Source: Procambarus clarkii
Lineage: Eukaryota; Arthropoda; Malacostraca; Decapoda; Cambaridae
Reading direction: 5' to 3'
NCBI RefSeq assembly: GCF_040958095.1
Contig: NC_091219.1
Location: 30,515,252-30,579,251 of the forward strand
DNA length: 64,000 bases
The notes beneath the pieces are model-generated. The model was not told where the DNA came from. It did no database searches and saw nothing but the letters and a program-made list of their open reading frames with translations. The stretch's first letter is position 1. Every line of letters starts with the position of its first letter. Position numbers and translations under genes: made by a program. Below are positions 17,191 through 52,300 of this stretch, piece after piece.

Positions 17191-17890
17191 TATTTATTTA
17201 TTTATGCATATGCAAGAATGTACATAAGGAATGTGAGGATACAAATATGGTAATTACAGTCTTGTAAAGCCACTAGCACGCGCAGCATTTCGGGCAGGTC
17301 CTTAATCTAAGAAAATTTTAAGGAGGTAAATACTTGCAAAATTTATAGACAAAAAAAATGATAAGTTACATGAAATGAAAAAAAGATGAGAGAAAATTGT
17401 AGGTACAGTATATTAAAGCACATAGGTAGCTAAGATTGATTGCAATGACAGCTTGAATGGTAGTTGACAAAAATTGGTAGGCACAATACAGCAGAATCAA
17501 TATAAGATTGATTGCAATGACAGCTTGAATGGTAGTTGACAAAAATTGGTAGTCACAATACAGCATATGGCTAGCACATAAAAGACAGCAATGAACACAA
17601 TGATAAGGTTGTTTGATATTACATAAAAATTAGGAGATTGGGTAACACTAGGTACAGAGCAAACTTAAGGCTCAGTGTAGGAAACTAAGAAGATGAAGTT
17701 AGGTACTTTTTGGTTTTGCTTTTAAATAAGGCAAAAGTTTTACAGTTTTTCAATTCACTAGGGAGTGAGTTCCATAGACTAGGTCGCTAAATTTTCATAG
17801 TGTTTACACAGATTAAGTTTGACCCTGGGGATATCAGAGATATTTATTTCTGGTGTGGTGATGTTCCGAACCTTAATGGAATCTGACCCA
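17190..17890 (-). mobile_element. LINE 3' fragment, CR1/L2-like
   Basis: Read on the minus strand, 17890 to 17600 encodes a decayed C-terminus: TRNKY, then LWNSLPSELK- and ALFKSK-like segments, matching the end of the LINE at 31530 (HTRNKYSFDIPRVRL ... MWNDLPNHVKD ... FKLKTKLYL). The shared tail gacctgcccgaaatgct (17285-17302) and an A-rich end (taaataaataaa) follow. It appears to have inserted into the Tigger-like end at 17088. Confidence 0.6.
17431..17575. repeat. 72-bp tandem duplication
   Basis: taagattgattgcaatgaca and the following bases up to cacaatacagca occur at 17431 and again at 17503, nearly identical, inside the LINE 3' region. A recent local duplication. Confidence 0.8.
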
Positions 17891-18079: not shown

Positions 18080-18680
18080 AAAGATATTTGTAGTTGTATA
18101 AAAGTTGCCTTTTTCATCGGTCGTAGAGCCGGAAATCCGCAATATTCATCTCGGAACAATGCTTATTATACGCAGAATCGTTAATAAACGTAAGATTTTT
18201 ATACGTCTCAAGAAAGATAGAAACATAATCTTCATTTTAAATGCCTTACCATGGGCATATTTGTATTTAAAGCGAAGATACCTGTATTTTTCTAATCGTC
18301 GAGCTCCGATCCCGCACAGATCGAGCAACGGAGTAACTCTCTCAGAACAATGCTTATTTCACGTAAATTCGTTAATAAATGCAAATGTTTTTATATGTGG
18401 TGAGAAAGATAGAAATATAAGCTTCATTTTAAATACTTTACCATAGATATATATAAAGTTCTAATGAAGATACATGTGTTTTAATAATCGCCGAACTCCG
18501 ACCCCACACAGACTGATCGACAGAGCAACTCTCTCTCAGAACAATGCTTATTGCACGTAAATTCATTAATAAACACACATGTTTTATATGTCTCAAGAAA
18601 GATAGAAATATAAGCTTCATTTTAAATACTTTAACATAGACATATATAAAGCTCAAGTGAAGATACATACGTTTTTATAG
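18080..18680. repeat. Diverged ~190-bp satellite array
   Basis: At least three tandem units. aacaatgctta recurs at 18155, 18346 and 18540 (spacing 191 and 194), each followed by cacgtaaattcgttaataaa-like sequence, an agaaagatagaaatataa block and aagcttcattttaaatac. Two short frames on opposite strands are by-products of the repeat. Confidence 0.8.
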
Positions 18681-24419: not shown

Positions 24420-25960
24420 TGAAGGTAAGGTAATTACCAAAAGAAGGCACCAAACCGGGAAGGCCATGTAGCACCATCAAAGTGCGAAATAATCAGAGGG
24501 CGCTAAATATCACCAAGAATGCCAATATGAGAACAAAAACGCATAAGGCGAACGATATTAAAAGTATCCGATTCAACTAGAATTCTATCGAGGGACGGTC
24601 GGAAAGCAAGACACACGCTCGTCCTGGAAGTCAGGACATTCAACAAGGATATACACAACTGTAAGAGGGACAATAAGGAGCAGGGCGACGCTCCATTAAG
24701 TGACCGTGGGTTAAGCGGGTACGACCAACCCACAGCCGTGCCAAAGCAGTGTCCCACCGCCGGTTACGGTGGTAGGAGGAAGGCCACGGGGACACACTAA
24801 GTTTGAGAGTACGCAGCTTGTTACCAACAACCCTGCCAACGGGGAAGAATGAATAACAGGATAAAAGTCGGAATAAGGAATACCTTTACGGGAGATGGGA
24901 CAAGAACGGATAGCTTCCTTAGCAGCAGCATCCGCACGCTCATTGAAACACCAATATGGCTGGGAACCCAGCAAAACTCTACTGATTTAAATTTACTAGA
25001 AATAAGAAACAGCCAATGTTGAATCTCAATGACCACCGGATGGACAGGATTAAAGGACCCTAGAGCCATGAGGGCACTACGAGAATCAACTACAACCACA
25101 AAAGAGGAATGAGAAAGCAAGAGACGAAGAGCATAGAGAACAGCATAAAGTTCTGCCGTAAAGACGCTAGCCTCCGAAGGGAGGCGACACATGTAAGTAC
25201 GGTCAGGAAAAACAACAGAGTAGCTCACACCATCCGCAGACTTAGACCCATCAGGGAAGATGGAAATAGAGTGGGAGTGCGAAGAAAAGTGCTCAAGGAA
25301 GAGGCTTTTCAGAATTGTAGGAGGGGTAAAGGCTTTAGCAATACAAGTCAAGGACGTACACAACTTGGGAAGGGGGACTCTCCACGGAGGTAATGAAGGA
25401 ACAATACGAGGAGAAACATTAGAAATATGAACAGAAAGAGAATCCTGTAAGCGAGATAACTGGACAGAAAGTGGGAGACAATGAAGAGGAACAGGAACCA
25501 CAGGAGGAGGAAAAGTCAATGCACGACAGAGGCGAGAGGATGTTGGAAGGACCGCGCAAGATAGCCAAGACAGTAGCGATCATGGCAGTCCTGAAGAGAA
25601 AGCCAGTGTCAACATACAAACTAAGGGCGGGAGTCGAACGAAAGCCACCAGAGCTGAGACGCAACCCAGTATGGTGCAAAGCATCAAGATGGCAAAGAGT
25701 AGAAGGAGAAGCAGAAGAGCATGCAGGGCAACCATAATTGAGTTTAGACAGGACGAGAGAGGAGTGCAAATAGAGGAGCGTGCGCCTATCCGCTCCCCAA
25801 GAAGTATGGGACAAAACCTTAAGGAGGTTAAGGTCCTTAGAGCATTCAACTCGGAGGCAAGAGATATGGGCTGACCAAGACAAACGAGTGTCAAAGACTA
25901 ACCCCAAAAGCTTCGCGGAATCCCTGTACACAATGAGATGACCATAAAGCAACAACAATG
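24420..25960 (-). mobile_element. LINE fragment with RNase H domain (I/R1-group)
   Basis: Read from 25960 downwards, one frame encodes the post-RT region (KLLGLVFDTRLSWSAHI, then KLNYGCPACSSASPSTL). A following frame at 25519-24821 encodes an RNase H domain: FPDGSKSADGVSYSVVF, ELYAVLYALRLL, VVVDSRSALMAL and WVPSHIGV, which hold the Asp-Glu-Asp core. A small C-terminal segment follows to about 24500. RNase H after RT is typical of I-group LINEs. It is 5'-truncated and shifts frame between the RT and RNase H parts. The long plus-strand frames here are shadows. Confidence 0.8.
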
Positions 25961-30945: not shown

Positions 30946-31529
30946 CAGCCTTATATTTTATGTTCTCACCTGATTGTTACTTTGAGGTAGGCCCGTAAGT
31001 GGTAGTCCTCTTGAACCATTAACAGTATCAATAGATGATACTGGAGATCTGTGGAGGTGCGACTGGACCCTGCGTGACGGGAGATGTATCCCTTGTTTCT
31101 TGTGATTGATTGATGAGGATTAAGCCACCCAAAAGGTAGCAAGGGCATGAATAGCCCGTAAGTGGTGTTCTTGTTAGTCACAGTTGATTTTTTTTTTATT
31201 GAGACTGGTATTTTATCCCCTGATTCCATGTATAACTAACCATCCTGTGAGATGGGAATATTTAATGAACTTATAGCTAGTTTTTGATATACACTGTGTA
31301 ATCTTTCATATAGAATAGGGTAGCAGCACATTACTGTGTATACCTAAGCTTGTTAATAATAACAAAAAAAAAAAGTTAGTTTCTATCGATAGGGAGAGCG
31401 ATGGTTCAAAAATCCTTCTTTAAAATATGAATATCTTTCCTATCTCACTAAGATCTAATCTCTGTGATTAAAATTATACTTTTTTTATAATTATATATAT
31501 AATTTTTTTGATTATATAAAATTATACAT
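30946..31529. repeat. Likely LINE 3' untranslated DNA and AT-rich flank
   Basis: Follows the decayed RNase H LINE. It contains two taagtggt-containing blocks (30998 and 31151) and ends in A/T runs at 31361 and 31480-31530. The latter is the target or 5' junction of the LINE that follows. Confidence 0.4.
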
Positions 31530-31554
31530 ATTTATTATACTTACTGAAACATGG

Positions 31555-34254
31555 TTGAAAGAGGATACTACTCAACTCTTTAACATGCCTAACTACTCAG
31601 CAATTCACAACTGTCGTCAACTTCAGAGAGGTGGTGGCACTGCTCTTTACTACCACCAAGAACTAACATGCTTAAAAGAAATTAGAACTAGAGACTGCTA
31701 TGGGGAGTATATCTTCGCCAGCTTCAGAGTCAAGGGTGCCGAGTCTGTCCTGTCTGTGGGTGCAGTTTATAGAATTCCTAACACTGATGTGTCCGAATTC
31801 AACTCAAACCTTAGAAATCTAATACTTGATAACAGATTGAACAAAAACCACCTAATTATCGCAGGGGACTTTAATATTGACCTCTGCGAGCCAGAACACC
31901 CTACTGCTGTTAGCTTCCTCAACTGTATGAATTCCTGCTTCCTCATACCCTTAATCACTAGACCTACTAGAATCACTGATAGCACTGCCACGACTCTAGA
32001 TCACATCTGGACAAACATAACCTCTCCGCTTACTTCAGGTATAATCACCGATAGCACTACAGACCATTACCCCACATTTCTCTTAACTAACATTAGCAAA
32101 CCACCTCTTGAGTCAAGAGAGATACGTTTCAGACTACACAATGAAACTGCTATAGACAATTTTATAACTGCTGCTGATAATGTCAACTGGGAGTCCGAGT
32201 TAGGTAACATAGAGGACATCAACCTAGCAGTGCAATCTTTTCTTCAAAAAACTCTTAGCCTTTATAATACCCACTGTCCTATGCTTACAAAACAAGTCAC
32301 AACCAAAAGGCTCAACAATCCCTGGCTTACAAAGGGAATACTTAAATCTATTAATAAAAAACATGACCTTGAGAAGAAGTATAGGTTAGGAATTGTCTCC
32401 AAAGAATTCTCAAAGAATTACTCATTATTGCTATCTAAGATAATTAGACGAGCCAAAACTAAATACTACGAAGATAAATTTACCCAAATAAAGAGCAACA
32501 TTAAACAAACTTGGAGCACAATTTCACAAATATTGGGATCAAAGAAATCTTTAAATAACAAACCGACTCTCCTGTCTAATAACGATGGTCAGCTTTCAGC
32601 CTCTGATTCTGCTATTGAGTTCAATAGGTTCTTCTCTTCCATTGGTTCATCCCTTGCAAATGATATTCCATCTTCCAGTACTGACATTAAGGACTATCTT
32701 AAAGGTAACTATCCACAGTCTCTGTACCTAAAGCCTATTAACTCCACTGACGTCAATGAGATAATCCTTTCCCTTAAAACCAAGTCTGGTGCCCTTGAGG
32801 AGATACCAACTTTAATTTACAAAAAAGCCTCCAGATCTTTAGCCCCTGCTATTGCTTTGCTCTTCAACAAGTCACTTGAACTCCAAACCTTTCCAGATAT
32901 TCTAAAAAAAACGAGAGTAACGCCTGTCCACAAATGTGGTGATCTCACAGATGTTAACAACTACAGACCTATATCAATCCTGCCAAACTTGTCAAAAAAT
33001 TTTGAAAAAGTAATCTATAAGCAGCTTTACTCATATCTAGCCAAACTCAATATACTTAGCCCTTGCCAATATGGCTTCAGACCCAAAAAAAGCACTAACG
33101 ATGCACTTATTAGTATGCTTAACTCGATTCATACAGCTCTTGATAAAAAGGAGTTCCCTGTTGGGTTATTTGTGGACCTGCGTAAAGCTTTTGATACTGT
33201 CAACCACCAAAATCTTCTTCTTAAATTACATCATTATGGAGTCAGAGGACACTCCCTACAATACCTCAAATCCTACCTTACTGACAGGCTCCAATATGTT
33301 TCTGTGAATAATACAATTTCTCCCACCCTACCCATCAACATTGGTGTTCCTCAGGGCAGCATACTTGGCCCTCTCCTCTTTCTCATCTACATTAATGACC
33401 TTCCAAATGCCTCCCAACACCTCAAACCAATTCTATTTGCTGACGACACAACCTTCATTTACTCCAGTCCTGACCCCCTTGCTCTAAATGCCACAGTAAA
33501 TACTGAGCTAAATAAAGTCCATCTTTGGCTAACTGCCAACAAACTCACCCTTAACATTGACAAAACTTTCTATATTCTGTTTGGCAATAAATCCTCTAGT
33601 CAAATAAATCTCAAAATAAACAATACCCAAATTTGTAACAAATTAGATGGCAAATTCCTTGGCATTCTCATTGACCACAAGCTGAATTTCCAGGGACACA
33701 TTCTAAATATATCAAAAAAAGTTTCAAAAACTGTGGGCATTCTTTCTAAGATCAGATATTATGTACCACGCCCTGCCCTGGTGACTCTCTATTACTCCCT
33801 TATCTATCCATATCTCAACTATGGTATTTGTGCTTGGGGCTCTACTACCCAAAATCACTTACGTCCTCTAATTACTCAACACAAAGCTGCTATTAGGACA
33901 ATATCCAACTCTGGCCCCAGGCATCACTCGGTACCCCTACTCAAATCTCTGAATATGTTAGACATTAAGTCACTGCATATTCTCTCATGTGTATTATACA
34001 TATATAAAACGCTAAACTATAATGCCAATCCTGATCTCAAAAGCTTCATAGAAGGATGTAACAGAACCCATGAGCACCACACCAGAAATAAATACAGTTT
34101 TGATATTCCTAGAGTACGACTTAATCAAACTAGAAATGCTCTACAAATCAAGGGGCCCAGAATGTGGAATGACCTTCCCAACCATGTTAAAGACTGTACT
34201 TCTCTCAACCAGTTTAAGTTAAAAACGAAGCTATACCTAATAAATTCCCTGTAA
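31555..34254 (+). CDS. LINE ORF2: endonuclease and reverse transcriptase
   Basis: 899 codons from the first Met; the frame is open for several codons upstream, so this Met is not the true start. Domains: AP-like endonuclease with GGGTALYY (26-33), GDFNIDL (104-110) and STTDHYP; linker; reverse transcriptase with VDLRKAFDTVNH (~539-550), GVPQGSILGPLLFLIYINDL (~597-616) and the catalytic FADDTTFIY (~628-636); C-terminal domain with HTRNKYSFDIPRVRL and MWNDLPNHVKD. It encodes target-primed reverse transcription of its own RNA. The RT signature is complete, but without the endonuclease N-terminus this copy is probably not autonomous. The RT and C-terminus suggest the CR1/L2/Jockey group; the exact clade needs a tree. 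Confidence 0.92.
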   Translation: MKEDTTQLFNMPNYSAIHNCRQLQRGGGTALYYHQELTCLKEIRTRDCYGEYIFASFRVKGAESVLSVGAVYRIPNTDVSEFNSNLRNLILDNRLNKNHLIIAGDFNIDLCEPEHPTAVSFLNCMNSCFLIPLITRPTRITDSTATTLDHIWTNITSPLTSGIITDSTTDHYPTFLLTNISKPPLESREIRFRLHNETAIDNFITAADNVNWESELGNIEDINLAVQSFLQKTLSLYNTHCPMLTKQVTTKRLNNPWLTKGILKSINKKHDLEKKYRLGIVSKEFSKNYSLLLSKIIRRAKTKYYEDKFTQIKSNIKQTWSTISQILGSKKSLNNKPTLLSNNDGQLSASDSAIEFNRFFSSIGSSLANDIPSSSTDIKDYLKGNYPQSLYLKPINSTDVNEIILSLKTKSGALEEIPTLIYKKASRSLAPAIALLFNKSLELQTFPDILKKTRVTPVHKCGDLTDVNNYRPISILPNLSKNFEKVIYKQLYSYLAKLNILSPCQYGFRPKKSTNDALISMLNSIHTALDKKEFPVGLFVDLRKAFDTVNHQNLLLKLHHYGVRGHSLQYLKSYLTDRLQYVSVNNTISPTLPINIGVPQGSILGPLLFLIYINDLPNASQHLKPILFADDTTFIYSSPDPLALNATVNTELNKVHLWLTANKLTLNIDKTFYILFGNKSSSQINLKINNTQICNKLDGKFLGILIDHKLNFQGHILNISKKVSKTVGILSKIRYYVPRPALVTLYYSLIYPYLNYGICAWGSTTQNHLRPLITQHKAAIRTISNSGPRHHSVPLLKSLNMLDIKSLHILSCVLYIYKTLNYNANPDLKSFIEGCNRTHEHHTRNKYSFDIPRVRLNQTRNALQIKGPRMWNDLPNHVKDCTSLNQFKLKTKLYLINSL

Positions 34255-34425
34255 CCTACCTTACCCTTCTATTGTCAACCAATGTCTGTTTTTTTTTTTT
34301 TTTAAAGAGCGCTGTTTGTCGACATAATTGTATTTGTGCTACTTTTTCATCTATGTTTTCATTTCTTGTTTTCATTCTACTCATTATGCTCAATTAGTAT
34401 TAAGCTTGTCATTTAAGTTTATCAT

Positions 34426-34475
34426 GCCCGAAACGCTTTGCGTAATAGTGGCTTTAGGCATTGTATGTACTAGCT
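34426..34475 (+). other. Shared 3' tail motif in its LINE of origin
   Basis: tgcccgaaacgctttgcgta then tagtggctttaggcattgta. Reverse-complement copies of this tail end the SINE at 2404, the LINE pieces at 17190 and 19610 and the insertion at 38287. Confidence 0.7.
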
Positions 34476-34572: not shown

Positions 34573-35495
34573 TGTAACCATCAATGTCATCTAATGGTGC
34601 AGTGATTTGCACCGATTCAAAAGCAGCACTGCAAAGCCTAAGTAAAAATCAGGCAGAAAATCTTGCAATAGTCGCTGAAATCAAGAGAGCTGTGAGAGTA
34701 CTTACCAATCAGGGAAGAGTCATCAAGTTTCTGTGGATCCCCTCCCATGTTGGAATATGTGGGAATGAACGAGCAGATGTGCTGGCTGCTGAAGGCGCTG
34801 AAGGAGACCATATTGAATACTTCATACCCAAGACTCAACTACAAATTAGAGGTATTATCAGGCAACATCACCGTGACAAGGTAACTGAGGAAAGGAGGAT
34901 AGAAGCACAAACCAGTGAATCTGTACGATGGTACAACATGGTTGCAGCTGGCAATCCCAATCAGTATGGCCGAAGAGGAGGACGACGAGGGAGAGAATCT
35001 GTAATAGCGAGAATCCGTCTTGGATACAAATATCCATGGAGATTTGGAATGGAAACAACAGTTGATCAGCGAAGTTGCAGAATCTGTGGTGAGAGTGATG
35101 GACACCGCCTTGACCACTATCTACGTGAATGTGAACACCTGAGAGACATTAGGAATAACTGTAGAATAATAAACCCCACATTGTTTGAGTTAGGAAAACA
35201 CTATTTGTCAAATATTGATACTGTTCTTAAAAGATTTCCCCATTTTGCACCCGCAAGATAACGTAAGCTTTTAAGGGTTGATAAATGTTAATCTTCTTGT
35301 TTGAGGAGCTGTTCACTTGAGACAGTTAAGCAAGTCCCAGCTCTGTCTGGGTACAAGTGACAGGATGAACAACCCAGCGGGTTTTCTTCCTATTGGGGAG
35401 TGTTGTACATTCTGCTATGGCGGTATGTTCACTCACAAGATGAGTGGCGCTGCCCAATAAACTTGCCCCTCGGGGCAAAATTTAAAAAATTTAAC
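34573..35495 (+). mobile_element. RNase H LINE, 3' part with its untranslated region
   Basis: A 225-codon frame (34584-35261) holds the second half of an RNase H domain: CTDSKAALQSL (Asp at residue 11) and FLWIPSHVGICGNERAD (50-64, with the last Asp). A zinc-knuckle-like CRICGESDGHRLDHYLREC (~164-182) follows, then the C-terminus. The first RNase H Asp and the whole RT are absent, so this is a 5'-truncated LINE of the I-group type. The 3' untranslated region (35262-35495) contains gacagttaagcaagtccc and ggcgctgcccaataaacttg. It directly abuts the tail of the LINE at 31530. Confidence 0.85.
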
Positions 35496-35757: not shown

Positions 35758-36325
35758 AAAAGGTTCGTTCAGTGTTTGTTGGGTAGGCTGCTCCATTATG
35801 ACAATCTTTCTTTGTTTCAAATGTGTTCCATTTGTTTTGTATTTGTCACTTACGTCTCAATAATGGAGCAGCCTACCCGACAAACACTGAACGAACCTTT
35901 ATGGCATTTGTCCATTTTTCAAATTGTTTCAACAGTTCTTTTATTTTTCGTTTTTTTTTTTATTTAAGAAACATGGAGCAGCTGACCTGTAGACAACCGA
36001 ACGAACCTTTTTGACATTTGTACTGGTTTTCAAAATTCTTCATTTTTTTTATTATTTACGTTTTTTGTATGTAAGAAACATGGAGCAGCCTACCTGCCGA
36101 CCACCGAACGAACCTTTTGCTATAAGACAAATGAAAAATAAATATTGAACACATTTGAAGAAAGGAAAATGTCATAATGGTTTATTCAGTGTATGTAGGG
36201 TAGGCTTCTCCATTATTGAGACGTAAATGACAAATACAAAACAAATGGAACACATTTGAAACAAAGAAAGATTGTTATAATGGAGCAGCCTACCTGCCGA
36301 ACACCGAACGAACCTTTTTGACATT
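35758..36325. repeat. Inverted-repeat array
   Basis: The unit atggagcagcctacc...cgaacgaaccttt occurs four times on the plus strand (about 35864, 35972, 36079, 36279) and twice reversed (about 35764-35797 and 36187-36212). The whole stretch 35760-35895 is close to the reverse complement of 36187-36315, giving ~130-bp arms around a ~290-bp centre. Short frames repeat MEQPTxRxxNEPF and look like by-products. Confidence 0.8.
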
Positions 36326-36525
36326 TGTTGTATATCAGACATTTCATTTCTTTTTTCCTACAAAAACGTCAATGCTTTGCAACATCTCAGCAGTCACCCT
36401 TTTATATCCCAGCATTATTAGCATCTTTAAACAAGAACAACATAATTTATGTGATCGTCGGAGGCGTCTAAGAATGTGCAAGAAGCAGCGCGACCCCACC
36501 GTGTGGTGTTGACGTTACTCAAACC

Positions 36526-36619
36526 AGCGTTCGTCATACGGGACGATTTGACGCCGATCGGGCCGTTCGTTACCCAAAATGTTCGTCTTTTGGGGCGATC
36601 GTTATGCGAGGTACCACTG
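36526..36619 (-). mobile_element. Tigger/pogo-like transposon end, right
   Basis: On the minus strand it starts cagtggtacctcgcataac, identical for 21 bases to the end at 17088, then runs cgatcgccccaaaagacga and a second copy-like gggtaacgaacgg. A TA dinucleotide flanks it at 36620-36621, as expected for Tc1/mariner/pogo target sites. Confidence 0.6.
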
Positions 36620-36621
36620 TA

Positions 36622-37102
36622 TTAAGCTTATTAACTGAGCTCCATTACTAACCCCCTAATGTAAAAAAAAAAAAAATTCTACATCAGTGATGCATGGGCC
36701 TACATTTGTGATTTCAAGGATGCATGAATGTGTGAGCCTATTATAGAATTTTTTTTTTACATAGCCTGACCAGGATTTTAAGTGGGATCGCCCCCTGGGG
36801 TATAGGGTACGGTAACTACAGTACTAGTTTCTCTTCCTCCAAATTAAGAATGAACGCTAGACAAATACATGGAGATATGATGGACCTTGCATTCAACATC
36901 CATATATAGTACTGTATTCCATTAAACAAATGCATCATGGCTAGTTCATCATAAAGTAACAAATTTAAAAATTGCAAAACCTTTAGTTGCAGCTACCAAA
37001 TACAGTATTAAGTTTCATATGAATTTCTTTTATGAAGGATATTTAAATGCAGTTTAACATGTAAAGAATTTTGTTCAGTTCTAGAAATAAAATGCATACA
37101 TG
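36622..37102. other. Gap between repeats and RFT1 stop codon
   Basis: AT-rich with an A-run at 36662 and a T-run at 36752. The part next to 37102 is the likely 3' untranslated region of RFT1. I see no clear canonical polyadenylation signal on the minus strand close to the stop. Confidence 0.5.
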
Positions 37103-37333
37103 CTAGATTCTATAGAGCAACCAGTGTATTTTATCTACCAGCAATACTTTGCTAAACTGCTCCTTGTCATAGTGATCATTCTGCTCACCCAGTCGTGAGA
37201 GTAATTTACTGGCAAACTGAAGGATCTTCTCCAGCAAAGGTTTCATCTCCCAGCGCAGGAAGTATATAACAGCCATGAGACACATTGCACCAAATCCAAT
37301 GTGTAAGGTTATACATCTTGGGTAAACAGTTTT
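37103..37333 (-). CDS. RFT1 last exon
   Basis: The acceptor cttttccag precedes KTVYPRCITLHIGFGAMCLM, then VIYFLRWEMKPLLEKILQFA, ending WLLYRI and TAG (37103-37105). Phase 0 entry fits the previous exon. It holds the last membrane segment and a polar tail. Confidence 0.88.
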   Translation of the reverse strand, partial: KTVYPRCITLHIGFGAMCLMAVIYFLRWEMKPLLEKILQFASKLLSRLGEQNDHYDKEQFSKVLLVDKIHWLLYRI

Positions 37334-40300
37334 CTGGAAAAGAAAATTCACATCTCGCATTACATTCACAATAAACATAAGTATTCTGGAAAATAACAAA
37401 ATTATATACTGCATTATAAGATTTGATTTTGAAAATGAAGGCATACCCCCATTCTTGCAACCTTTACATTGATCCATGGTAGGCCAATGCACAGTGTGTG
37501 AACAGAGCCTTGACTGGTGCCTCTGAGGCACGAAAAGAAATCTGGCCCAGATGCCACACGAGACTGGGACCAGGGAAATTTACTAAATACAAAGATTCAG
37601 TTAGACCTCTCAAACCTGAGCACAAATATCAACCTACAACATGTTGAAGACAGCCGCCAATGCTGCATACTTATGAATATCATGGACTCAAGGGTAGACT
37701 GCATGTTGGCTAGTTTTTATGATGCTGCAGACAACCTTAGAATTGCAACAAGAGGGAAAGGAAACTAAACAAGGCATCCATCAAGGCAGAACCGGTACCA
37801 CACAAGTAGGGTGAAGCATACCACTGGACACTACAATGATGCACCCCCCAGCTGGACCAACTAAGCATCAATCACCAAGAATATAATCCAGAATCCAACC
37901 AACTTGCTCTTTGCCAGAAAAGAAGGCAGAGAACAAACACACCATCCATCAGAGCCAAAGGAACAGAACCTCTGCCCCAGAGAAGAGCACAAAGCTCTCC
38001 ACCCTGCAGGGTTGGGGGAGTCATGAGTATAATGCTCATACTGTCCAGTATAGTACTAGATATTTATTAGCAGTACCTTCTTTTCTAGTGTATGAAATTG
38101 TTAACATGTATACCCACCTCGGAAATTGTTGTAAGAACTAAGACAACACATGCACCCACCTCAGAAATGTTTGTAAGAACTAAGACAACACATGCACTCA
38201 CCTCAGAAATTGTTGTAAGAACTAGGACAACACATGCACCCACCTCAGAAATTGTTGAAAGAACTAAGACATCACATGCACCTACTTTTTTTTTTTGAGA
38301 TATATATAAGAATTGTTACATTCTTGTACAGCCACTAGTACGCGTAGCGTTTCAGGCAAGTCCCTGGAATACGATCCCCGCCGCAAAGAATCGTTTTTAC
38401 AACCAAGTACACACCTCAGAAATTGTTGTAAGAACTAAGACAACACATGCACCCACCTCAGAAATTGTTGTAAGAACTAAGACAACACATGCACCCACCT
38501 CAGAAATTGTTGTAAGAACTAAGACAACACATGCACCCACCTCAGAAATTGTTGTAAGAACTAAGACAACACATGCACCCACCTCAGAAATTGTTGTAAG
38601 AACTAAGACAACACATGCACCCACCTCAGAAATTGTTGTAAGAACTAAGACAACACATGCACCCACCTCAGAAATTGTTGTAAAAACTAAGACAACACAT
38701 GCACCCACCTCAGAAATTGTTGTAAAAACTAAGACAACACATGTACCCACCTCGGAAATCGCTGTAAGAACTAAGGTGAAAGTAAATATAAGTATGATTC
38801 TTGGTTGTATGTATAAGGAAATTAGTGGATGGAAGGCACTTCCTTGGTATTGCTTATGAATAAACCAATAACTGAAAAGAGAAAAATGTATATACATTGA
38901 TTAATACTAATATATATGAATATCCAGAGAGAATAATAAGACTTGCTTAACAGATTGTTTTAAAGGTAAATATTCCAATAAATACATATCACTAATAACA
39001 TCCATTATTTAAGTCTCAAAGAATGGTGATCATCAAAATTGTCACCTCGCCTGTACACATGGGGAAAATAATCCAGCATTGAATTTAATGAAACACCTCT
39101 TTCTGGCGACTCACTAAAGCAATCTCGCCACCATTGCTCCTATCTATTAGGTGCCATCAGTCGTGGAGTTCTCTTTGGTCTACCGGGAACCAGAGCCAGA
39201 AACCGCCCTCTCCTCACAAAGGCAGAGAGAGCGAGTGATATTCCACCACTCCACTGGGAAAGCATCCAGAAAGTCAAAGAAGCATTAGAGACAAATGCCA
39301 GGTCCCCAAAAACCAAAACCTCAAAAACTCTGCCACAAAACACTTGATCTAAAGAATGTAAATAATTGATTGAATCTAACACAACTAGTGCTAAACAGTT
39401 AGCATTAACAACCCCCCCCCCCTCTCTGCCACCAGGGGGCCAAGAGCACCAGCATCCCACCAACCCAATTAAGTCAGTGCTGGAGCTGCTACCAAATGAT
39501 GAACCTCAAGAGAGGGAGGGAGGGATTCAGGGTGCCACTGGGGCTCAACCAGAAAGAAGTATTTCATTACATTCAATGATGGATTTTTGGGAGAGGCCCT
39601 CATAGTTCCCTGAAGCTAATTAACCACAGAGAAGGAAAACATGGGACTTACCAGGGAGGAGGGGAGATGGCAACGAGGGAGAGGCAACAAGCCAAGAAAC
39701 ATGGCCCAAAACACTACAGGGACAATTGGGTTCAGGAAAACTGATTAAATACTGGTCTGCTAAGACCCTGCTACTCCTCCAAAACCCCTTTGCCTGAATA
39801 TCAGCCCAGGACATTGGAAAAAGACAGTTGCAAGCACATCATGTTTATGAACATCAAGGGGCACAAGGGTAGACCATTAGCTGGCTAAACGTAACAGCAC
39901 TGAGGACAACCTGAGAAATGTGAGCTTTCGAATGGGACCAAGGAAACAGGGTTGACCTGCAAGGCATTCACCGAAGCAGAATCGGTGGTGGAAAGGTGGT
40001 GGGAAATTGCCACCACCGGACACAACAAATGATGATGCTCTTGTGAGAACTAACCAAGTATCAATAATTAATGGACCTCTCCGGAAGCCCGCTGACTCAT
40101 TTTTCACCAGAAAAGGAGAAGGCTACAAATGAACAAAATGCCCACCAAGGTCAAAAAAACAAAACCCATGCCTCTGGAGAAGAGCATGAAGCTACCTCCA
40201 TCCTACAACCCAAGGTGAGAGCCAACAGGAACACTGTCTTGAGAAAGAGTGTCCCCGGATAGAAGAGGAATCCGTAAACAGAGAAGAGGACAGCAAGACG

Positions 40301-43300
40301 AGGACTCGGTTGAGAGACTAGGGTGACTTGGGAGGCTGGAGGCGAAAAAATTACAGTTTACAGAGCAGCATTGAAACAGTATTGACGTCGAAGGCAAGTA
40401 ACAGTGGCTCCATCAACGTCAAATGATGAGATGCTGGTCCAGAAACAACCACAACAAAAAGGAAAGCACAACCCGTACGGAAAACTATGAAAGATGACAA
40501 GAGAAACAGAAAGACGCAAAATCATACTGCTGCATCAAAGACACACACTGAAGGACACCAACAATCTAGCTCCCTGCTTGTCAAGCAAATGATGATAGAG
40601 GTGTGCCAAAAAGTCCAGATGCAAAGTGCAGAGGAGAAGTTTGAACCAGTAAAGTATGGTGCAGGACTAGACCAATTTCCTGAAAGAGATGGAGCTATGG
40701 AAAATGCCCGGGTTTGAACACTGAGCAAGAAAAGCCGGGAATCAAGGCTGAGTCGGCCACCAAGGAACAAGAAGAATCACCATCCCTGAATATGACCAGT
40801 CTGGCAAGAACCAAGAGCAACAGTTGAACCAGGGTAAAGAGATAAATGAACTCCCATATCAACTAGCCCAAACGAGGCCAGCCAAGTTCTACACTTATGT
40901 GAAGTAATCCACCTTGAAGCCCCCAAAAGTCTAAACAAATCCAGTAGAACACGTTAATGATCCACTTCATGGAAATAAAACGGAAGCAAGACAACCCATT
41001 TATGATGGGGTGATATGATCACCATTTACAAAATACTAACAGGAATTGACAAAATTGACAAAGAGGAATTCCTGAAACCAGCAACTTCACGAACAAGAGC
41101 ACACAGATTCAAGCTAAGGAAACACAGGTGTCAAAAAAGTATTAGAAAGTTTTCTTTTGCAAACAAAGTGGTAGACGATTGGATTAAGCTAAGTGAGAAG
41201 GTGTTGGAGGCCAAAACTGTCAATAGTTTCAAAGCGTTATATGACAAAGAGTACTGGAAAGACAGGACACCACAAGCGTAGCTCTCATCCTGTAACTACA
41301 CTTATGTAATCACTTCGCTGACTTTGTTCAATAAGGATGTTGGATACCCCGAATGTGAAGGGTGTGCAGTGGCAAACTCCAAGAATCCAGAAAACAAGTT
41401 ATATATTGCATCCAGCTCCAAAATGAGAGGGACTAAAGCAACTCCCTTGGTTAAAGCCATGTACCACTGGGAAGCATTCAGAATAAAGCTGGAGCATGGA
41501 GCCCGGAGGGAGCTAAATCTTCCTCAAAGCATTCCACATGCTTGTAAACTAGTGCACTGTACACTGTGCCTGAAGGAACAGACCTGACCAATGATCCAGG
41601 GTCGCATGGTGAGTGCTAGTCATGAAGTCCCAGTCCAGAGCCAAAGTGTTTGTAAACACATCCAGCAAAAGGGAAGGATGGGACCACAGAACCAAAGCCT
41701 GAAAAACTTGAAGAGCAAACGGAAAAAGCAACAGCCAACGAAGGGATACCAGGGCCTGAAGCCACACCCTCCCTAGCTGGAAAACTAACCAGGCAAATCT
41801 GAGGCTTCTGCACAACCACTCAACTAGCCTCCAAGTCACCCAGAGCCAATCCAGTACCAGATGGTGAAGAGGTTGCCAGAGGAAGGGAAAGTGAATCCCA
41901 AACGAGGCCAGCCAAGTCTGGACCAGGGATAGGACCAAGTGGAAATTTCACCAGTTAACCAGGAAACTGAATGCACTAATGAGTAGAAGCTAAAGGTCCC
42001 TGGAACCTGGGGACCCACTGAGGACCCACCCTGACCAGTGGCAGGCAAAGCCCCAGCCCTACCAAACTGCCTCTGAAAATAAGGAATAGAACCCCGAGAA
42101 CAAAGTGTTACAGTTATCACCTGCATAGCAGTGGATTCTGCCTGTTCCTTACATCTTCCAAATCAACATGCTTCTACCTTATCCATCAACACCAACAATA
42201 TGTGCCAAAAACATATTGTCTAGTCTCTCCTTCCCCACCCCCACCACCCTACCGTCCACGAGAGATGCGCACCTGCAACCCACCAGCAAACAACCACTTC
42301 TCTTGCCGTTTCCTCATTCACGGACCCAGCTTCGCGCCAATATGACGTCACTACCGGTATATGTAGCCCTGGCCTGGGCTGTAGTAAATCAGAAGCCTAT
42401 TGGTGCTCTCTCAGTTCGCTTGTGTCTTCCCTTGCCTTGACGTTGTTACGAATGGGTGAAGGATGACATTCAGAGCACATTGTATAAAGTGCCACATTCA
42501 CCTTTTTGTCAGTAACAAATTCACTTGTACATATATAATTTCTTTTTAATTGTGATTATCCCTATAATCTATAATTAAAAAATAATTATCCCTAGAAGAC
42601 AGCCACCACGCCACCACACTCAAAGCACAGTGTTGGAAACGCTGGAGCCAAGCACAGAACCTCCACCTCTAGCATCAGCCCGAGAACTGACGGGTGGATA
42701 GCCGGCGTGGGGGTCTGGGGTTTCCCCTTTCCCCTCCTGGAAAGTGGGGAGCTGCACAGACAACGGGGCGGCGACGTGTGACGTCATGCTCGTTTCTTTT
42801 AGGGGAGTTCTATGTATTTGTTTGGCATCTGGTAGCATTTTCACCAGAAAAGGGGTTTGTCTTGGGATGCTTACCTTTCTGAGTGCCTGACCTGGTCGAT
42901 GGCAGACACAGAATGCTTCCAACCACATGTGGGTGTCTATAAGCCATTGCTTCCCATGCCTCTCTGAGGGGGCCAGGTTCTGGCTCGTGGTCCCCGGTAG
43001 GCCCACAGAACTCCATACTCATCACTGATGCCAAAGTCTGACATTAGCATATCAGCCTAGTAAGCTCCGGGAAGCTGTAGGGGCTTTCCCCAGAAAGAAA
43101 AAGAAAAGAAAAACTTCGCAAGAGGACAACGTACCCCAGGAGGAACAGAGCCAGCCACTGATATAGGTGAAAACTAGCTGCACAGTACCCTGTGCCCCTA
43201 CCAGTGCAAAAACTACCACTTGCCCCAGGGTAAACAAGGGCGGAAACCCCCCCCGCAAAACACTCGGGACAGTCAATCGCCGAGCAGCAAAAGACCAACA

Positions 43301-46300
43301 GAAATTGACCGCAAGGTGACCTGTGGAAGATAACCCCAAGCACCCTGGGTGGTACTTACAGGGCACTCAGGGAAGGTAACCCTCAGCACATGCAGCCCGA
43401 GTACCTGTGAATATTACTCCCAGCTCACACACCACCGTAAGAGCAGTACTGGACCCAAAGTACAAAGAGTCTGGAGCTGGAGCCACACGACCATACCACA
43501 ATCACATCAGCCGAAGAAATGATGGGTGGATCGCTGGCATGGGGGTCTGGGGCTCCCCCTTTTCCCCCTCCCGGGGAGGGAGGGGAGCTGCGCAGACATG
43601 CAGCGCGGCTTGTGTGATATCGAGCTTGTTTGCTCATTTTCATTTGGGGAGTTCTGGCCATTAGTTGGTCTATTTTAGTTGTTTTAACCAGAATATGGGT
43701 TTGTTTTAAGGTGCTTACCTTTCTGGGTGCCTGTCCCGGTCAATGGCAGATATAGAATGCTCCAAATCCCATTTGCATTTCTATAAGCCATTGCTCCTCG
43801 TGCCTCTCTGAGGAGACCAGGTTCTGGCCATGGTGCTCGGTAGGCCTAGAACTCCATTCCCACTGACTGATACCAAAGTTTAAGGATATACATATCAGCC
43901 TGGATAGCTCCAGGGAGCCGAAGGGGGTTCCCCCAGAAATGTAAGTCTTTATTCTGGTTTCATGCACATCAGGAGGGGGCTGGGTGGGCAAGTCATTGGG
44001 ACTATGGACATGATACTCAGTTTGCTGACTCAACAAGTTAGGATGAATGGCTCTGACATTTAAGCTAGATAGTTTTTATATTCATTGTTACACTGTAGTA
44101 TAAACAATGTGTAGCCTAATGCAACTTATGCACATATACTTGACAAATACAGTACAGTGATTCTGAATTTGTCATTATATATAAGGCCAATATTCTCTAT
44201 ATAGGCCTACAATGTAATATGTACACTTAAATTTCATGTAAATCTGTTCTAGGTACAGATGAAAGGATCATAGTTCAGTAATATATTTAAACACTGGTGA
44301 GAAAGACCAAAGTGTGATTTCATGATAATGGCAGGTCCATATTCACATAATAATCTATACAATAATCCATGATTTCATATTACATATAATAACCTCATTG
44401 CATAATAAGAAATACAAAATGGATAGCAGAACTTTTCATGGATTTTAGAACTTCATTATATCCCTATAGATGTAATATAACCAAATTAACATCATTTGTA
44501 TAAAAATAAGGCAATAACTAAAATCAGCATTTGGCAACCACATTACAGTACTCTGAAGATTAATGGATGATGATAATCGTTCTTTAAGAGATGATCCGAG
44601 AAGAGTTTTCTGTAGATGTGTACAAGCCATAGAAAAATTAATCATGTCTCATGGAACTATAACTACAATAATTCATGAAAGAATGATAATACCGTATTCT
44701 GAAATCATCTTTACAGACAAACAGTATATATATATTACCTGTATGTAATACGAAGTCCCATGTTGATACAGTTAGCAAAGACAAAGCCAAGGACACCAAA
44801 TAGCTGTGTGAATATGACTGCTGTTCCCAAATAAGCAAAAGAGAACAATATCAACAAACGGTTGTATCTGAAAAATATAAACAGTACCTTGAAAATTATA
44901 TTTCTGAGGGTGCCCATCCCCTCAGTGGCTCCTGTTCATTGGCCAGCAAAGAGGTCTTCATTAGATTCACTCAACTGTCAATTCAACCAAAATTTGTTTT
45001 ATGCACTTCACATTACTGACAGTGAACAAAATAAAACTAGATTGTTTCATATTTATGGCATGCACTGATAAAAGTAATATATTTATATGTATACAGAATA
45101 CCTATGTGTTCCCCATCTACAGACTAGATCTGAGGTCAGAAAAGATCAGTTTATTATATAAAATATGCTGCAATTTATTTTATTATTCCAGGAAAATTAT
45201 AATTAAGATTCTCTGGGGCAGAAAATTTTAAGAGATTTAAGTTAGTGGAGATAAGTATTACAATTACAACTTATGTTAAGAATATTATCTAGATGATCAA
45301 GAATATGACACAAGTTTACCAAAGCCCTATAAATGTAATATATTTCAGTTATAAAAAAAATTAACTCAATTAATATTTTTTCTATGAAAGTTACCTTGAA
45401 AGTTGTGCGTCATCCATGACAGCAAGAGTATATGACTCTGTGATACCATTGATGGCCAAAAAGACAACATAGAAGCACTGAGCTCTCATCAGAGGTGTCC
45501 CTTCCCCTTCACTCAGCTGATGACCTCCATAGAGCTGTAGATAAGAAAAAATTATTCACTCTTAGAATAATGACAGGAAAAACCGATGGTTCAAAGGACA
45601 TCGAAACCACCATTACAAATTCAACTGTGACTTGCAATACCTAAAATATTTAGCGCACAAGAATGAAATATGGCCACATCAAATTACTTAACAGCCTTAA
45701 AAATGCTCAAAACTATTTTAACTCACAAAAACTACAGTACAGTACTCTATTTCAAAACTATATAGAGCTACAATAAACACCCCTCTTATCTGAAGCCTCA
45801 TGGTACAGTTCTTTAACCCTTAGGCCGCGTAATACATATATAGATGATTTGAGTAACATTACCAATACCGCGCTATACATTAATAGCTGTTTTAGTGTCT
45901 AGCACTTTAATTTAAATGCCCTGCGTGAGATAGGGGCAGCTATAGTGCAGCCACGACCGCAAAGCAGTCGCCACCTAGAAAAGCGAGGTCTAGTGCTTCA
46001 TGCCTCACCTCCTATCCATTTATACCTGGTGCACTAATTACCTCATTCAACATTAACAATTTCATCTTATTTTTCTTAAAGTTCAGGGTGGAATTGGCTT
46101 CAACAACCCCTTTGTTCAATACATTCCATTTGCCAAGCACCCATACAGGGAACAAGTACTACCTTATGTCTCTTCAACTCTTCGATCTGACCTACATCCT
46201 TTTAATTTAAATAGGCTCTCTTTATTCACTTTATCTATTCCCTTTATGATCTTGTATGTAGTTATCATATCCCCTCTGTTTCTTCTCTCTTCTAAGGTTT

Positions 46301-49300
46301 AGATGGTGAGTTCTCTCAACCTGTCCTCATAGTTGAATCCCCTCAATTCTGGTATAATATAGTTATAAACCTCTGAACTTTCTTAAGTTTCTGTTTATAA
46401 CTCACACGGTGGGTTCTATGCTGGTGGTGTATACTCAAGTAATGGTCTCACATAGGCAGTGTGTATGGACTTGAAAGCTACCTTGTTTGGTTTCTTAAAT
46501 GATGCTCCTATGTGTACTAACTCCCAATATGCAGCTGATGTTACCCTGTCCACATGAGTTTCTGGTGTTAATGTTGGGATTATGTCCACTTCCAAGTCTT
46601 TTTCTCTTATTGTTTCTTGTAATTGCCTACCCCCTTCTGGTGAAGTAAAATATATGTCTAATTTGGATTTAATTGTACCTGGATGAACCTCAGTGAGGCT
46701 CTGGGAGTTGTTCTTCCCAAGCTCACTCCTGAAGTTTGTTAAGGTCTTCTTGCAGCACCCTTCAGCTCTTACTCTCCTCATTAACTTTGCATTATCTGCA
46801 AACATCGACATGTACGAGCTCACTCCTGTGTGGCCATTTACATAAATTTAAGAAACGAATGGTCATAGGACAGATCCCGGTGGAACACCATTTTCCACTC
46901 CTCTCCAGCCAGACATGTCCTCTCTGAATATGATCTTTAGTCGAGTACTCCCATACCCATTCCAGTGCCTTTTCTGTTATCTCCACTTGTCTCTCCATCT
47001 TATGTATTAGTCATTTGAGAGGAACTGTATCAAAAGTCTTTTGGCAGTCTACAAAGATACAGTCTACCCATCCTTCCTTGTTTCATTGTGTTGACCCTGT
47101 CACAGAATTCAATCAAGTTTGCATAATTTTCCCTCTCTGAAGCCATGTGGTGCCTCTATTATAAAATTTACTGTCCCCAAATCTTCTACAATCTTTTTCC
47201 TGATGACTTTATCATGTTGCATAGAATGCATATTACTGACACTGGTCTATAGATTAATGCCAGCTTCATTTCTGTCCCCTTCTTGAATACTGGAATTACA
47301 TTTGCCTATTTCTAGAATTCTAGTAGCTCTCACATCTCTAGTGTAATACTGAACACTATAGTAAATGGGTAACAAGATCCCTGCAGCTTTCTTCAATAAC
47401 CTTGGTGATATCTGGTCTGGTCCCACTGTTTCTGCTGCACTCAGTTCATTCTACTACATTAACTTAAATTCTGTCTAATATTGTTTCTGACAGTCTGATT
47501 ACGTGGTCTTGTACCATCATTTTCCTCCATAAATGGCTGTGCAACAGTTTAGGTTGGTTCTATGCTTTTGCTGCAAAGTCATTTTCAAACTGCTGCTCTA
47601 CTGTACTCCTGATTCTGGTGTATTCATTTCTGGCCCTCTCTGAGGAGAGACTGGAGGCATTAATAAGCCAAAGCTAGTGGATAGAAAGAAATGATGCAAT
47701 ATGATCACCACATACAAAATCATGACAAATTTACTAAGTTGACAAAGAAGGAATTTTCTAAATAGGCAACTTGCAGAACAAGAGGCCATAGATTAATGTT
47801 AAGAAAACATAGACATAAAAAATATAAGTAAGTTCTCAAGCAAATAGAGTTGTGCAATTAAAGATTTAAGAAGCTAAAATATATAAACTTTTAAATACAG
47901 TGACACCTCGAATTACAATTGCCCCGATTTACGATCATTTCGAGTTACGATATAAATTTGATCGAAAAATGCGACTTGACTTACGATAGTGTAGTCGACC
48001 AACGATATTCATTGATACACATTCGGGTCGACCGAGCACATGGTTCCCAGTCACGCAGGATGACCTGCCTCAGTTTACTAGAGCCGCCCACTTAGTGACG
48101 ATCACGCTTATAAGAAATTCCATTTTTGTGGTGATTTTTGCTTTTTGAACATAAAACTGATTATTATATATTATGCCATGGGTCCTAAGAAAGTCAGTAG
48201 TAAGGTTCAACATATGAAAACACATGTAAGAATGACCATAGAGAAAAAACAAGAGATCATACGTAAACATGAAAATGGTACTGGTGTTGTTGAACTAGCT
48301 AGGCAGTACAACAAATCTTCAGAGGCGGCGGCGGTGTTAGAGGATGTCCCTTCCTCATTAAGAAAATGTGCAGTATAAGAAAAACTGCAAAGTATTGCTG
48401 AAAAGAATCACCCAGATAAAGCTGTTACAGGCTTTTGCATTGATCTTTTTAATGACAATGTGATGCCTCACTACAGACAAGTGTTGGAAAGAAGGGAAAA
48501 CAATCTTCAATGAAATGATTTCTAGTGAGAAAATCAAGCAGTGAGCCAGAAGCAGGTCCTAGTGGTATGCAGGCAAAACGTGCCAGTGTGTGTACCCCAC
48601 TGCCTGATGTTATAATGGAAGGGGACTCCCCTTTCAAACAGTAACACCTCTCCTCCTCCCCCCTCCTCACCATCTTCCGTACACCATCAAGAGTCCTCCA
48701 TAAAGGTAAGATAAACATATGTACTGTATTGGAGTTTGAGAAAAAAATTGTATTCAGTATAAAATATATTTTTAGGTTAATATTTTTGAGGAGTGTGGAA
48801 CGGATTAATTCAATTCCCTTTATTTCATATGGGAAAAATTATTTTGAATTACGATATTTCGACTTACAATATGTCTCTGGGAACGGATTACCATCATAAA
48901 TCGAGGCTCCCACTGCATAAATAAATTTAGACCTGAATACATAAATTTAGACATGAAATGAAGGAATACATGTTTGCCACTCACCTGCAGTAATAAGCTG
49001 GAATATGACCAGCCAAATGTTAAGATAATGATACTAATAAGAATCATATTGCGGATTAATGAAGAAAAGAATCTAACCACTGCTGCAATTCGATCCTGAA
49101 AAAAGTTCAGATTATTTATAACTCAAACTTTATAAATATGAAAGTTTGTTGAATATTTTCACTTCAAATTTCATTCATACAACTGATACACAAACAAGAG
49201 TGTTTTTTTAAATCATCTGATCAGTGATAAATGATCTGTGCACATTGGAACACAAACACAATGTATAATAAATTAAAAATCAAGAATTGAATGTAATGAA

Positions 49301-52300
49301 ATACCCTTGTAACGTACGATTATGTTACGTTGTTGAATAGATTAGATACACAGTATTTAGTGGGTTTTCATATTTATTTAGTAGTTTTGGATACATCAGT
49401 ATCATAGACGTTGAGACAGAGCTTGGAACAGAGCAGAGCTGAGTGAGGCAGGAGTCGTGGAGCTCTATGTGGGAGAGTGTAGCGGCTCGATTGAGGAATT
49501 GCAAGTGTCTAAACTTGATGGGGCTTGAGACAGCGTTGTAGCTCGATGCGGTCCTAGTCTGCTGTCTGCTCTGAGTTGAAGCTGTACTGTCCTGGGGTTA
49601 ACTAGAACTGTACACGCCGAGTGCTACATTCTTGAGGTTGAAGAGATGTGGTAAGTCCTAAGCGTCTGTATTGTAGTTCACTGAATCACTGTGGAAATAA
49701 TTGTACTGTCGGCTATTCATTTTTTGCTTGCTTATATTTGGTGACTACACCTCAACTTCCTCCAACCAGGATGAAAAGAATGTTATTTGTAAATATGGCT
49801 AGGATTATAGCTTGTGAAATTAGTGCTAATTAGTTATGCCATTAACACTTTCGCTCGGGGATGACGCAGCATTGCGTCATCCGTTTACTGGCGGTAATGC
49901 CGGGGATGACGCAGCATTGCGTCATCCACTTTAAAAATTCGCCAAAAATCAGGTTTTTATCCGATTTTTTTGGGACTGGTTTTAAAATGTGCGCCGATAT
50001 CTTCCCATTTTCTTTGTTGAGCCTCGTGGCCCTCAGGCGGCTTGGCACACGCCGTGGGCCCATTGTCTTTGCTCCACTGTTGTGACCAATGTCGCCTCCC
50101 CTCGCATCTCAAACGTGTGAACATTTCGGCTATTTCCCGTGGCTATATTTCTTACTGCGGCTTTAGAAACTATCTACGCTTACTCCACGATGGATAGTAA
50201 TCATGAACAAGGCCCTTCCAGGAAGAAAATTGCGAAAGAAAGGCTTGAAAAGGGTGGGAATTGGGAGTGTAGCAGGAAGGCCTCTGAGCACTCACTCACG
50301 GCTAACGCGTGGCCCGTCTTCAATTCGTCGGCGGTTGGAGCGTGACCAGGTTTTTTTTTTTATATGCTAATGTTCCTCTAGAGAATTTTATTACGAACCC
50401 ATTGAGACCAAAATGAAAGACCTAGGACAAAAATTGAGGTGACCAGAGTGAAAATAGTGAAAACATTTTATCCCGTTTGCGCGCTCCCGGGTAACTCGTT
50501 CGCACTTTCTCTGTTTGCTGTGGGTAATTAGCCGGGCTTTTGGAGTTTATATGCATTTAGTGCTGTAGAGAATTTTATTGCGAACACAATGATACCAAAT
50601 TTAATCTCGTAGAAGGAGAATTGAGGTGACAAAGTTGAAGAGAGTATAGACTTTTCGGAATTAACGCGCGCTTCCGTGACACGCTGGGGCCCATATCGCC
50701 CTGTGGAGGGGTGGCGCGCGGGGTGAGCGAAAGTGTTAAGCTAATGAGAGACTGTAGTGAGTATATTGTTTGTACTTACTACAGAACTCCCCCTGCCAGG
50801 GAATGAAAGAAAGACAATTCAACAAAAAATATGAGTCTACTGTTTCCTGGGTCGCTGTGGAGCATGTAGTCCGGTACCAAAATACGCAGGCAGTGCGTGG
50901 ACAAGCTCGGAGTAGCAGGAGAAAAGAATGTAAATAATTGTGGCGTCCTTGGGTCTCTGGTGGAGCAATTAGATCTGGGACTGATGGGCTCGGGCACCAT
51001 GACCATAGGAGGTAATGTAGGCACATAGTTAAGACGAGGGGATCACTGCTAGAGCATAATTGTCCTGGAGGCGACGATCAAGAGTCAGAAATGCAAGCTG
51101 TAGGTCCTGTACTGCGCAAGGAAAATGCTCGAGTCGGCAGCATAGCAGAATGCAGTAAACGTGTAGATGAATCTGATGACAGAGCAGCTGTCGTGGGTGT
51201 CCCTGTAGGACAAGCAGTGCCCTGGCAGCGATGGAGAGTCGGCAGGACAGGCTGTAGATCCCACATGATGAAGCTGCCAGATGAGTAAGTAACGATCGTG
51301 GTGTAGCAAGCTGTAGCAGATGCAAATGCAAAGATGATCGTGATGAAAATCATAGTTGTGGCGAGGGTGTTGGCAGCGTTCCATGACAGCTGGCTGCGGT
51401 CCACAGCAAGCAGCAGCAGCAGTAGAGGTCCAGTGAAAGGGCCGAACCAGCCACGTACAGGACCGATTCGACCTGTTGAAAGAGGCGGAGCCGCGGGAAA
51501 ACACCCCGCGTTTGGACACCTATCAAGCAGTGTCTGAAAATAAGGATGGGCTGGCCACCAAGGAACCATAAGGACTACTCCCATGGGAATGGGCTCCAAC
51601 CGAGCCAGAACCCGAAGCAACAGCTGGACAGGGAGAAGAGGAACAGGTACCCCCACCTTAATCAGTCCTGCCGAAAGGCATCCACCATGAACGCCTCGCA
51701 GGCAGGTAAGGGTGCCACATAGAATGGGCGACGCCTAGACCATGCCGACTCGAAGACTTCCATGGCCAGGAGTCCGTACATCTGGCAGAGCCAACGAAAC
51801 GAGTCGGCGACGACCGGCCAATCCACGAACAGAGGAATGAACCGAGACAGCTGGTTGACATTAGCTTACGAACTGATGCTAGGCAGCCGGCGCGGTAGGT
51901 CCAGGGCTCCCCCCCTCCCCTCTCGGGGCGGGGAGGGCTGCGCGGACGATCGACGCAGCAGTAAAGTGTGATGTTTGCTTTGTTTCCTTGGGATTGTAGG
52001 GTGTTTCTACCTCTTTGTTCGGTTTTTTGTTACCATGTGGGGTTTATTTTGTTATGCCTACCTTTCTGGGTGCCTAACCCCGATCGATGGCAGATAAGGA
52101 AAACCCCAACCACAATGGGGTTTTCCAGGGCCATTGCTCCCTGAAACCTCTCTGAAGGGGCCAGGTTATGGCGCTGGTCCCTGGTAGGTCTGAACTCCTT
52201 AGCTAATGTCCCAGTCTAATATAACATACATCCTAAACACTATGGTTATCAATATGGATTCATCTGCATAACAAAGAAAATGCTGAAATGTAAACTAGTT

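Follow-up and report, generated by a model that had tools for sequence, protein, structure and literature searches.

The DNA analysed here, termed the window, is a stretch of 64,000 nucleotides (nt) from Procambarus clarkii (contig NC_091219.1, positions 30,515,252 to 30,579,251 of the forward strand). Its minus strand carries seven exons of an RFT1 gene, the penultimate of which runs directly into a tandem array of 42-base-pair (bp) units. Each unit repeats the end of that exon and the start of the following intron, including the 5′ splice site (donor). A single sequence forms the basis of the analysis, and both the copies and their donor motifs are read from the DNA letters alone. The exons, named A to G in the order of transcription, were chosen by eye from open frames, and their AG and GT borders and phases were checked. 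Coordinates are those of the window, and a slash marks an exon-intron border.

62471 to 62611, minus strand: RFT1 exon A, the first recognised; open, bordered and fitting in phase; earlier exons presumably lie beyond the window end
52332 to 52451, minus strand: RFT1 exon B; open, bordered and fitting in phase
48985 to 49095, minus strand: RFT1 exon C; open, bordered and fitting in phase
45395 to 45534, minus strand: RFT1 exon D; open, bordered and fitting in phase
44739 to 44867, minus strand: RFT1 exon E; open, bordered and fitting in phase
38751 to 38871, minus strand: RFT1 exon F, penultimate, 121 nt, phase 2 to 0, with ...TAISE at its end; open, bordered and fitting in phase; the last 25 nt belong to the first unit as its exon part
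38749 to 38750, minus strand: genuine 5′ splice site, GAG/GTGGGTAC, joined in phase 0 with the acceptor that precedes 37333
37103 to 37333, minus strand: RFT1 exon G, last, 231 nt with stop; acceptor TTTTCTTTTCCAG, phase 0, open to the stop

Exons A to G splice to an open frame of 330 residues closed by the stop codon that ends exon G. The spliced product matches the Pfam family Rft-1 with 245.1 bits (E = 2e-72, cut-off 23.8) over profile positions 230 to 500 of 512, and as the match starts at position 230, the earlier exons presumably lie outside the window. Addition of exon F raises the match of exons A to E by 20.4 bits (218.3 to 238.7), and without exon F the full match falls by 27 bits, to 217.9. 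The last eight residues of exon F are worth about 4 bits (245.1 against 240.9 when masked and 241.3 when deleted). The profile runs through exons F and G with no net gap, placing residue 251 at position 473 in one alignment and residue 278 at position 500 in another, but masking or deleting the last eight residues of exon F shifts that alignment. The profile match and the stop in the following exon support the initial annotation, which had named the gene RFT1 and the array-bearing exon the penultimate one. Human RFT1, too, has T-A-x-S-E at this place.

RFT1 was not matched in Pfam scans of the unspliced minus-strand frames of 37001 to 55000, as expected for short exons. A search of the Protein Data Bank returned no RFT1 relative, with weak matches to designed proteins and collagen only, and a viral-contig search for RFT1 gave 16 pattern matches, none of which was confirmed. 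Literature searches on RFT1 in crayfish and on RFT1 splicing and exons in arthropods found no report, which is weak evidence of absence.

The array begins at the genuine exon-intron border. Unit positions were obtained from an ungapped scan of the minus strand with the 42-bp consensus unit, CTTAGTTCTTACAACAATTTCTGAG/GTGGGTGCATGTGTTGT, and 13 units, some of them variants, lie between 38775 and 38101. They form two blocks separated by an insert resembling a short interspersed element (SINE).

38398 to 38775, minus strand: block 1, nine 42-bp units, the first being the genuine junction (consensus scan; Tandem Repeats Finder)
38286 to 38397, minus strand: SINE-like insert, 112 bp, with a terminal A(11); parts of its core are found again in the window (blastn)
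38269 to 38285, minus strand: 17 nt that repeat, in diverged form, the intron part of the unit (by inspection); together with the first copy at 38414 to 38398, a possible target-site duplication of the insert
38101 to 38268, minus strand: block 2, four units, the last of which (38142 to 38101) fades into non-repeated intron (consensus scan)
17301 to 17254, 19730 to 19699, 2469 to 2423 and 6100 to 6049, minus strand, and 34425 to 34456, plus strand: matches to the insert core, 32 to 54 nt (blastn, E ≤ 1.2e-4, 74 to 91% identity)

Units start at 38775, 38733 ... 38439 in block 1 (n = 9) and at 38268 ... 38142 in block 2 (n = 4), and the step is exactly 42 within both blocks and 171 between them. 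The scan thus agrees with the earlier description of twelve further copies, evenly spaced by 42 in each block, and it places the genuine junction (exon 38871 to 38751, donor GT 38750 to 38749) in register with them as the first unit on the RFT1 strand. Five of the 13 units are identical to the consensus, and the most diverged are the block ends at 38439 (8/42 differences) and 38142 (7/42). Tandem Repeats Finder gives a period of 42 over 38112 to 38775 with a score of 704, the top of 16 rows for the window. The self-match at lag 42 is 0.65 in 38900 to 38050, against a best lag of 0.34 in any of 200 dinucleotide shuffles, and the 13 units with ≤10 mismatches compare with none in each of 200 dinucleotide shuffles. 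With 42 bp and 13 units, the array falls inside the minisatellite range of 15 to 100 bp per unit (PMC3618361). No further copy was found in the window outside the array, where the nearest 42-mer has 18 mismatches, and viral-contig searches gave no match for either the unit or the insert core. On the opposite strand, a 186-aa open frame (38299 to 38859, plus strand) is mostly a by-product of the 42-bp period.

The unit consists of an exon end and an intron start, as first described, but its parts are 25 exon bases (CTTAG...GAG) and 17 intron bases rather than 24 and 18; the cut point is arbitrary. That the intron consists of such copies was overstated, as the 12 extra units account for 504 nt of its 1417 nt (38750 to 37334) and a 129-nt interruption separates the blocks. 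The insert, the in-frame open unit and the human precedent described below go beyond the initial annotation.

The insert is flanked on both sides by a diverged 17-nt intron part of the unit, GTGTGTACTTGGTTGTA and GTAGGTGCATGTGATGT. Most simply, this would be a retroposed SINE-like element flanked by a target-site duplication; the flanking stretches, however, differ considerably and sit in a tandem array, which blurs the test for such a duplication. The insert core might correspond to a SINE conserved domain; a literature text search with the core found no related paper, as judged by title.

GAG/GT is retained in all 13 units, in keeping, at the level of the motif, with the earlier claim that every unit brings a donor. 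The predicted energy of U1 pairing is -9.5 kcal/mol at 11 of the 13 donors, including the genuine one (GAG/GTGGGT), -10.3 at 38201 and -5.8 at 38414, so that ten of the twelve copies equal the genuine donor, one is better and one is worse. At the other five RFT1 donors the predicted values range from -6.5 to -11.7. The unit comprises 14 open codons in phase 0, and use of any of the first eight extra donors would therefore add 14k residues in frame, where k is the number of units retained. These eight donors keep the frame and the native C-terminus, giving 345 to 443 codons with the stop, whereas the four donors of block 2 would introduce a stop, the first read-through stop being at the end of unit 9. 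The added peptide, VGACVVLVLTTISE, is hydrophobic (mean Kyte-Doolittle value 1.94), and retention of several units might create a further membrane span or extend an existing one.

Within a block, each stretch from a GT to the next GAG is, by inspection, a formal 42-nt GT-AG intron in phase 0, and its piecewise removal would leave the mRNA unchanged. Longer stretches that reach a later GAG of the block could formally be removed in the same way. When the GAG of the copies is considered as an acceptor, the upstream pyrimidine fraction is 0.71 to 0.76, compared with 0.47 to 0.82 for the real RFT1 acceptors, and piecewise removal of units is thus possible. A fold of the 467 nt from 38871 to 38405 gives -93.8 against -114.8 (standard deviation 5.0) in 60 shuffles, i.e. 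the segment is less structured. In this one fold the genuine donor is predicted to be 0.33 unpaired and the block 1 copies 0.20 to 0.30, no clear excess in openness, and structure does not explain a choice of donor. Rfam matches in 36500 to 39500 were limited to two, both far below cut-offs, and no tRNA was found in the window (ARAGORN, bacterial code).

Differences between the units bear on how the array grew. The units at the two ends of the array, 38775 and 38142, have TCC in the exon part in place of the TCT seen in the other 11. At the seventh intron base, after GTGGGT, both have A; of the 11 others, 10 have G and one, 38439 next to the insert, has A. Old bases in the outer copies together with uniform inner copies would fit the pattern left by unequal exchange. 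The origin of the array from the exon-intron junction, proposed earlier, is well supported by this distribution, as the outer units share bases mostly missing from the inner ones, as well as by the fit of the exon to the family profile (strong for the whole exon, with about 4 bits from the last eight residues) and by the lack of further units in the rest of the window.

The seven inner units of block 1 contain one change, common to two units (1 event in 294 nt), and the first three units of block 2 contain 5 changed bases in 126 nt, two of which are adjacent and perhaps one event. Fisher's test gives p = 0.010, rising to 0.028 when the shared change counts as two, for counts that were made post hoc, leave out units 38775, 38439 and 38142, and take the adjacent bases as two changes. 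As fewer changes are present in block 1 than in block 2, block 1 has probably expanded more recently. Copy number that differs among individuals is a general property of minisatellites, and if the recent expansion is true, that of block 1 should vary between individuals.

Donor-bearing minisatellites are already known. In the human interferon-induced gene IFI6 (6-16, G1P3), one lies at an exon-intron border. Multiple splice donor sites are reported for it (Turri, Cuin and Porter 1995, NAR 23:1854). According to PMC4526556, two downstream repeat units of IFI6 act as donors, producing three mRNA species. The RFT1 array is likewise a minisatellite supplying multiple donors, starting at a genuine border and repeating the donor in the unit. 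It differs in the gene, in its open 42-bp unit that is a multiple of three, and in that its donor copies are known from DNA; the frame-keeping period is the added feature. In fission yeast, SPOG_01682 and SOCG_00815 have introns made of tandem 24-nt proto-splice-site units, which PMC3629103 reads as gained, with the caution that one of the two cases needs more study as an expressed sequence tag splices differently. Those units also carry a splice-site motif in tandem, but they resemble nearby exons, the introns are taken to be new and the site is AGGC, whereas the RFT1 intron continues well beyond the array, which did not create it. For the potato RdRp gene, PMC4974935 describes splice signals inherited via tandem duplication of an existing intron-exon structure. 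Splice signals of the RFT1 array are similarly inherited through a duplicated exon-intron structure, but the duplication in potato made a new intron, and the RFT1 array has 13 units and no demonstrated new intron. Literature searches on tandem-repeat donor arrays found none of the IFI6 kind, as judged by title.

Taken together, the locus is likely to hold a junction-derived array in which the first donor is mainly used and the remainder is spliced out. A 42-bp stretch over the end of exon F and the intron start would have been duplicated in tandem. Unequal exchange or replication slippage would then have enlarged the duplicate to a minisatellite of 13 donor-bearing units within the intron. A SINE-like element appears to have split the array later, and block 1 probably continued expanding. 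The main donor is most likely the first, at 38750, because only one copy is predicted to be stronger and because the first donor closes the normal 121-nt exon and is transcribed first; the remaining array would be removed with the intron. Leakage to copies 1 to 8 would be cheap, and perhaps near-neutral, since the residues it adds come from open codons in phase 0. Several observations weigh against this explanation. The stronger predicted copy at 38201 (GAG/GTGAGT) lies downstream of the genuine donor, and two of the other five RFT1 donors are predicted to be stronger than it (A, -11.1; C, -11.7), the remaining three being weaker. The predicted RNA structure gives the first donor no clear advantage. 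The Rft-1 profile separates the direct join of exons F and G from the two-unit join by only 1.5 bits, and the homology at the very end of exon F has a small margin given the low score of its last eight residues. In view of the stronger donors, the better copy at 38201 and the lack of a clear structural preference, the choice of the first donor is a judgement, not a result.

Use of several donors, with copy number determining isoforms of RFT1 in which 14k additional residues would follow at the end of the penultimate membrane span, is possible but unlikely. Each of the first eight extra donors leads to a complete frame that retains the native C-terminus, predicted U1 pairing is equal at 11 of the 13 donors, the nine donors of block 1 are predicted to be about equally open (0.20 to 0.33 unpaired), and repeat units of IFI6 serve as donors (PMC4526556). 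However, joins that keep 1, 2 or 8 units score 240.3, 243.6 and 238.0 bits as Rft-1, a loss of 4.8, 1.5 and 7.1 bits relative to the direct join. There is also no sign of constraint at the protein level, one of five distinct codon differences being synonymous when units 38775, 38439 and 38142 are left out, which is too few for a test. An extended version, in which the array would act as a length dial for RFT1, is rather improbable: its nine in-frame donors, together with copy number, would set the number of 14-residue hydrophobic segments between the last two membrane spans, and piecewise 42-nt removal without change to the mRNA would have let the array spread.

The other readings have very low probability. 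If each unit were a trap for 20-nt microexons, with CTTAG as acceptor and GAG/GT as donor, the AG in each of the twelve copies would follow 17 nt with a pyrimidine fraction of 0.47 to 0.53, near that of the exon B acceptor (0.47). Six of the seven real RFT1 acceptors are more pyrimidine-rich (0.65 to 0.82), and one to four microexons would all stop the protein early, before the C-terminal part that exon G encodes; this highly improbable reading was rejected on account of the truncated products. It is hardly more credible that the intron itself arose when an AGGT-bearing coding segment was duplicated in tandem (Rogers model). GAG/GT is present in every unit, and PMC3629103 reports as gained two fission-yeast introns that consist of tandem 24-nt units carrying proto-splice sites, but under this model the downstream exon should resume with the unit. 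Exon G starts at 37333 with AAAACTGTTTACCC (AAAACTG...), 767 nt past the array and unlike the unit by eye, and the model was rejected on this ground. Insertion of a satellite from elsewhere, with the exon end taken over from it, would suit the small contribution (about 4 bits) of the last eight exon F residues to the family match. It is very doubtful, as no 42-mer outside the array comes within 17 mismatches of the unit anywhere in the window, the array is in register with the end of the exon from its first unit on, and the profile alignment has no net gap across exons F and G, although with the shift on masking or deletion described above. An assembly artefact that inflated the copy number is also quite improbable. 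The five identical units make an exact count hard with short reads, but block 2 units differ from one another, the insert separates the blocks, and misassembly usually collapses arrays.

Other features were recorded in the window. A 928-aa open frame at 31468 to 34254 (plus strand) belongs to a non-LTR retrotransposon; its endonuclease and reverse transcriptase domains both exceed the Pfam cut-offs. An RNase H domain fragment is found at 34578 to 35261 (plus strand; 26.0 bits, cut-off 25.8) and an RNase H-like fragment, below the same cut-off of 25.8, at 24821 to 25579 (minus strand; 22.4 bits). Open frames at 46419 to 47450 (minus strand) resemble reverse-transcriptase remnants by eye, and the part at 46422 to 46847 has no Pfam match at E 0.001. 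A 16-bp tandem array of 19.4 copies occupies positions 1 to 317 at the window edge, and tandem duplications of about two to three copies are located at 17431 to 17565 (72 bp), 18149 to 18679 (192 bp), 35863 to 36118 (107 bp) and 61373 to 61712 (188 bp). Three Pfam matches below their cut-off of 27 bits were taken as chance: NAAA-beta over block 2 (21.5 bits), the sole match of the unspliced scans, Ribophorin_II_C with exons F and G alone (20.7 bits) and CD52 with exon F plus the array (11.9 bits).

One intron of a glycosylation gene here offers a natural competition experiment among near-identical candidate 5′ splice sites. Eleven of the 13 are equal in predicted U1 pairing, and the 42-nt step keeps the frame for the first eight copies. 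Counts of RNA junctions in this species would reveal how position sets the choice of donor. The locus also suggests that duplication of an exon-intron junction can expand without evident harm if the unit contains no stop and its length is divisible by three.
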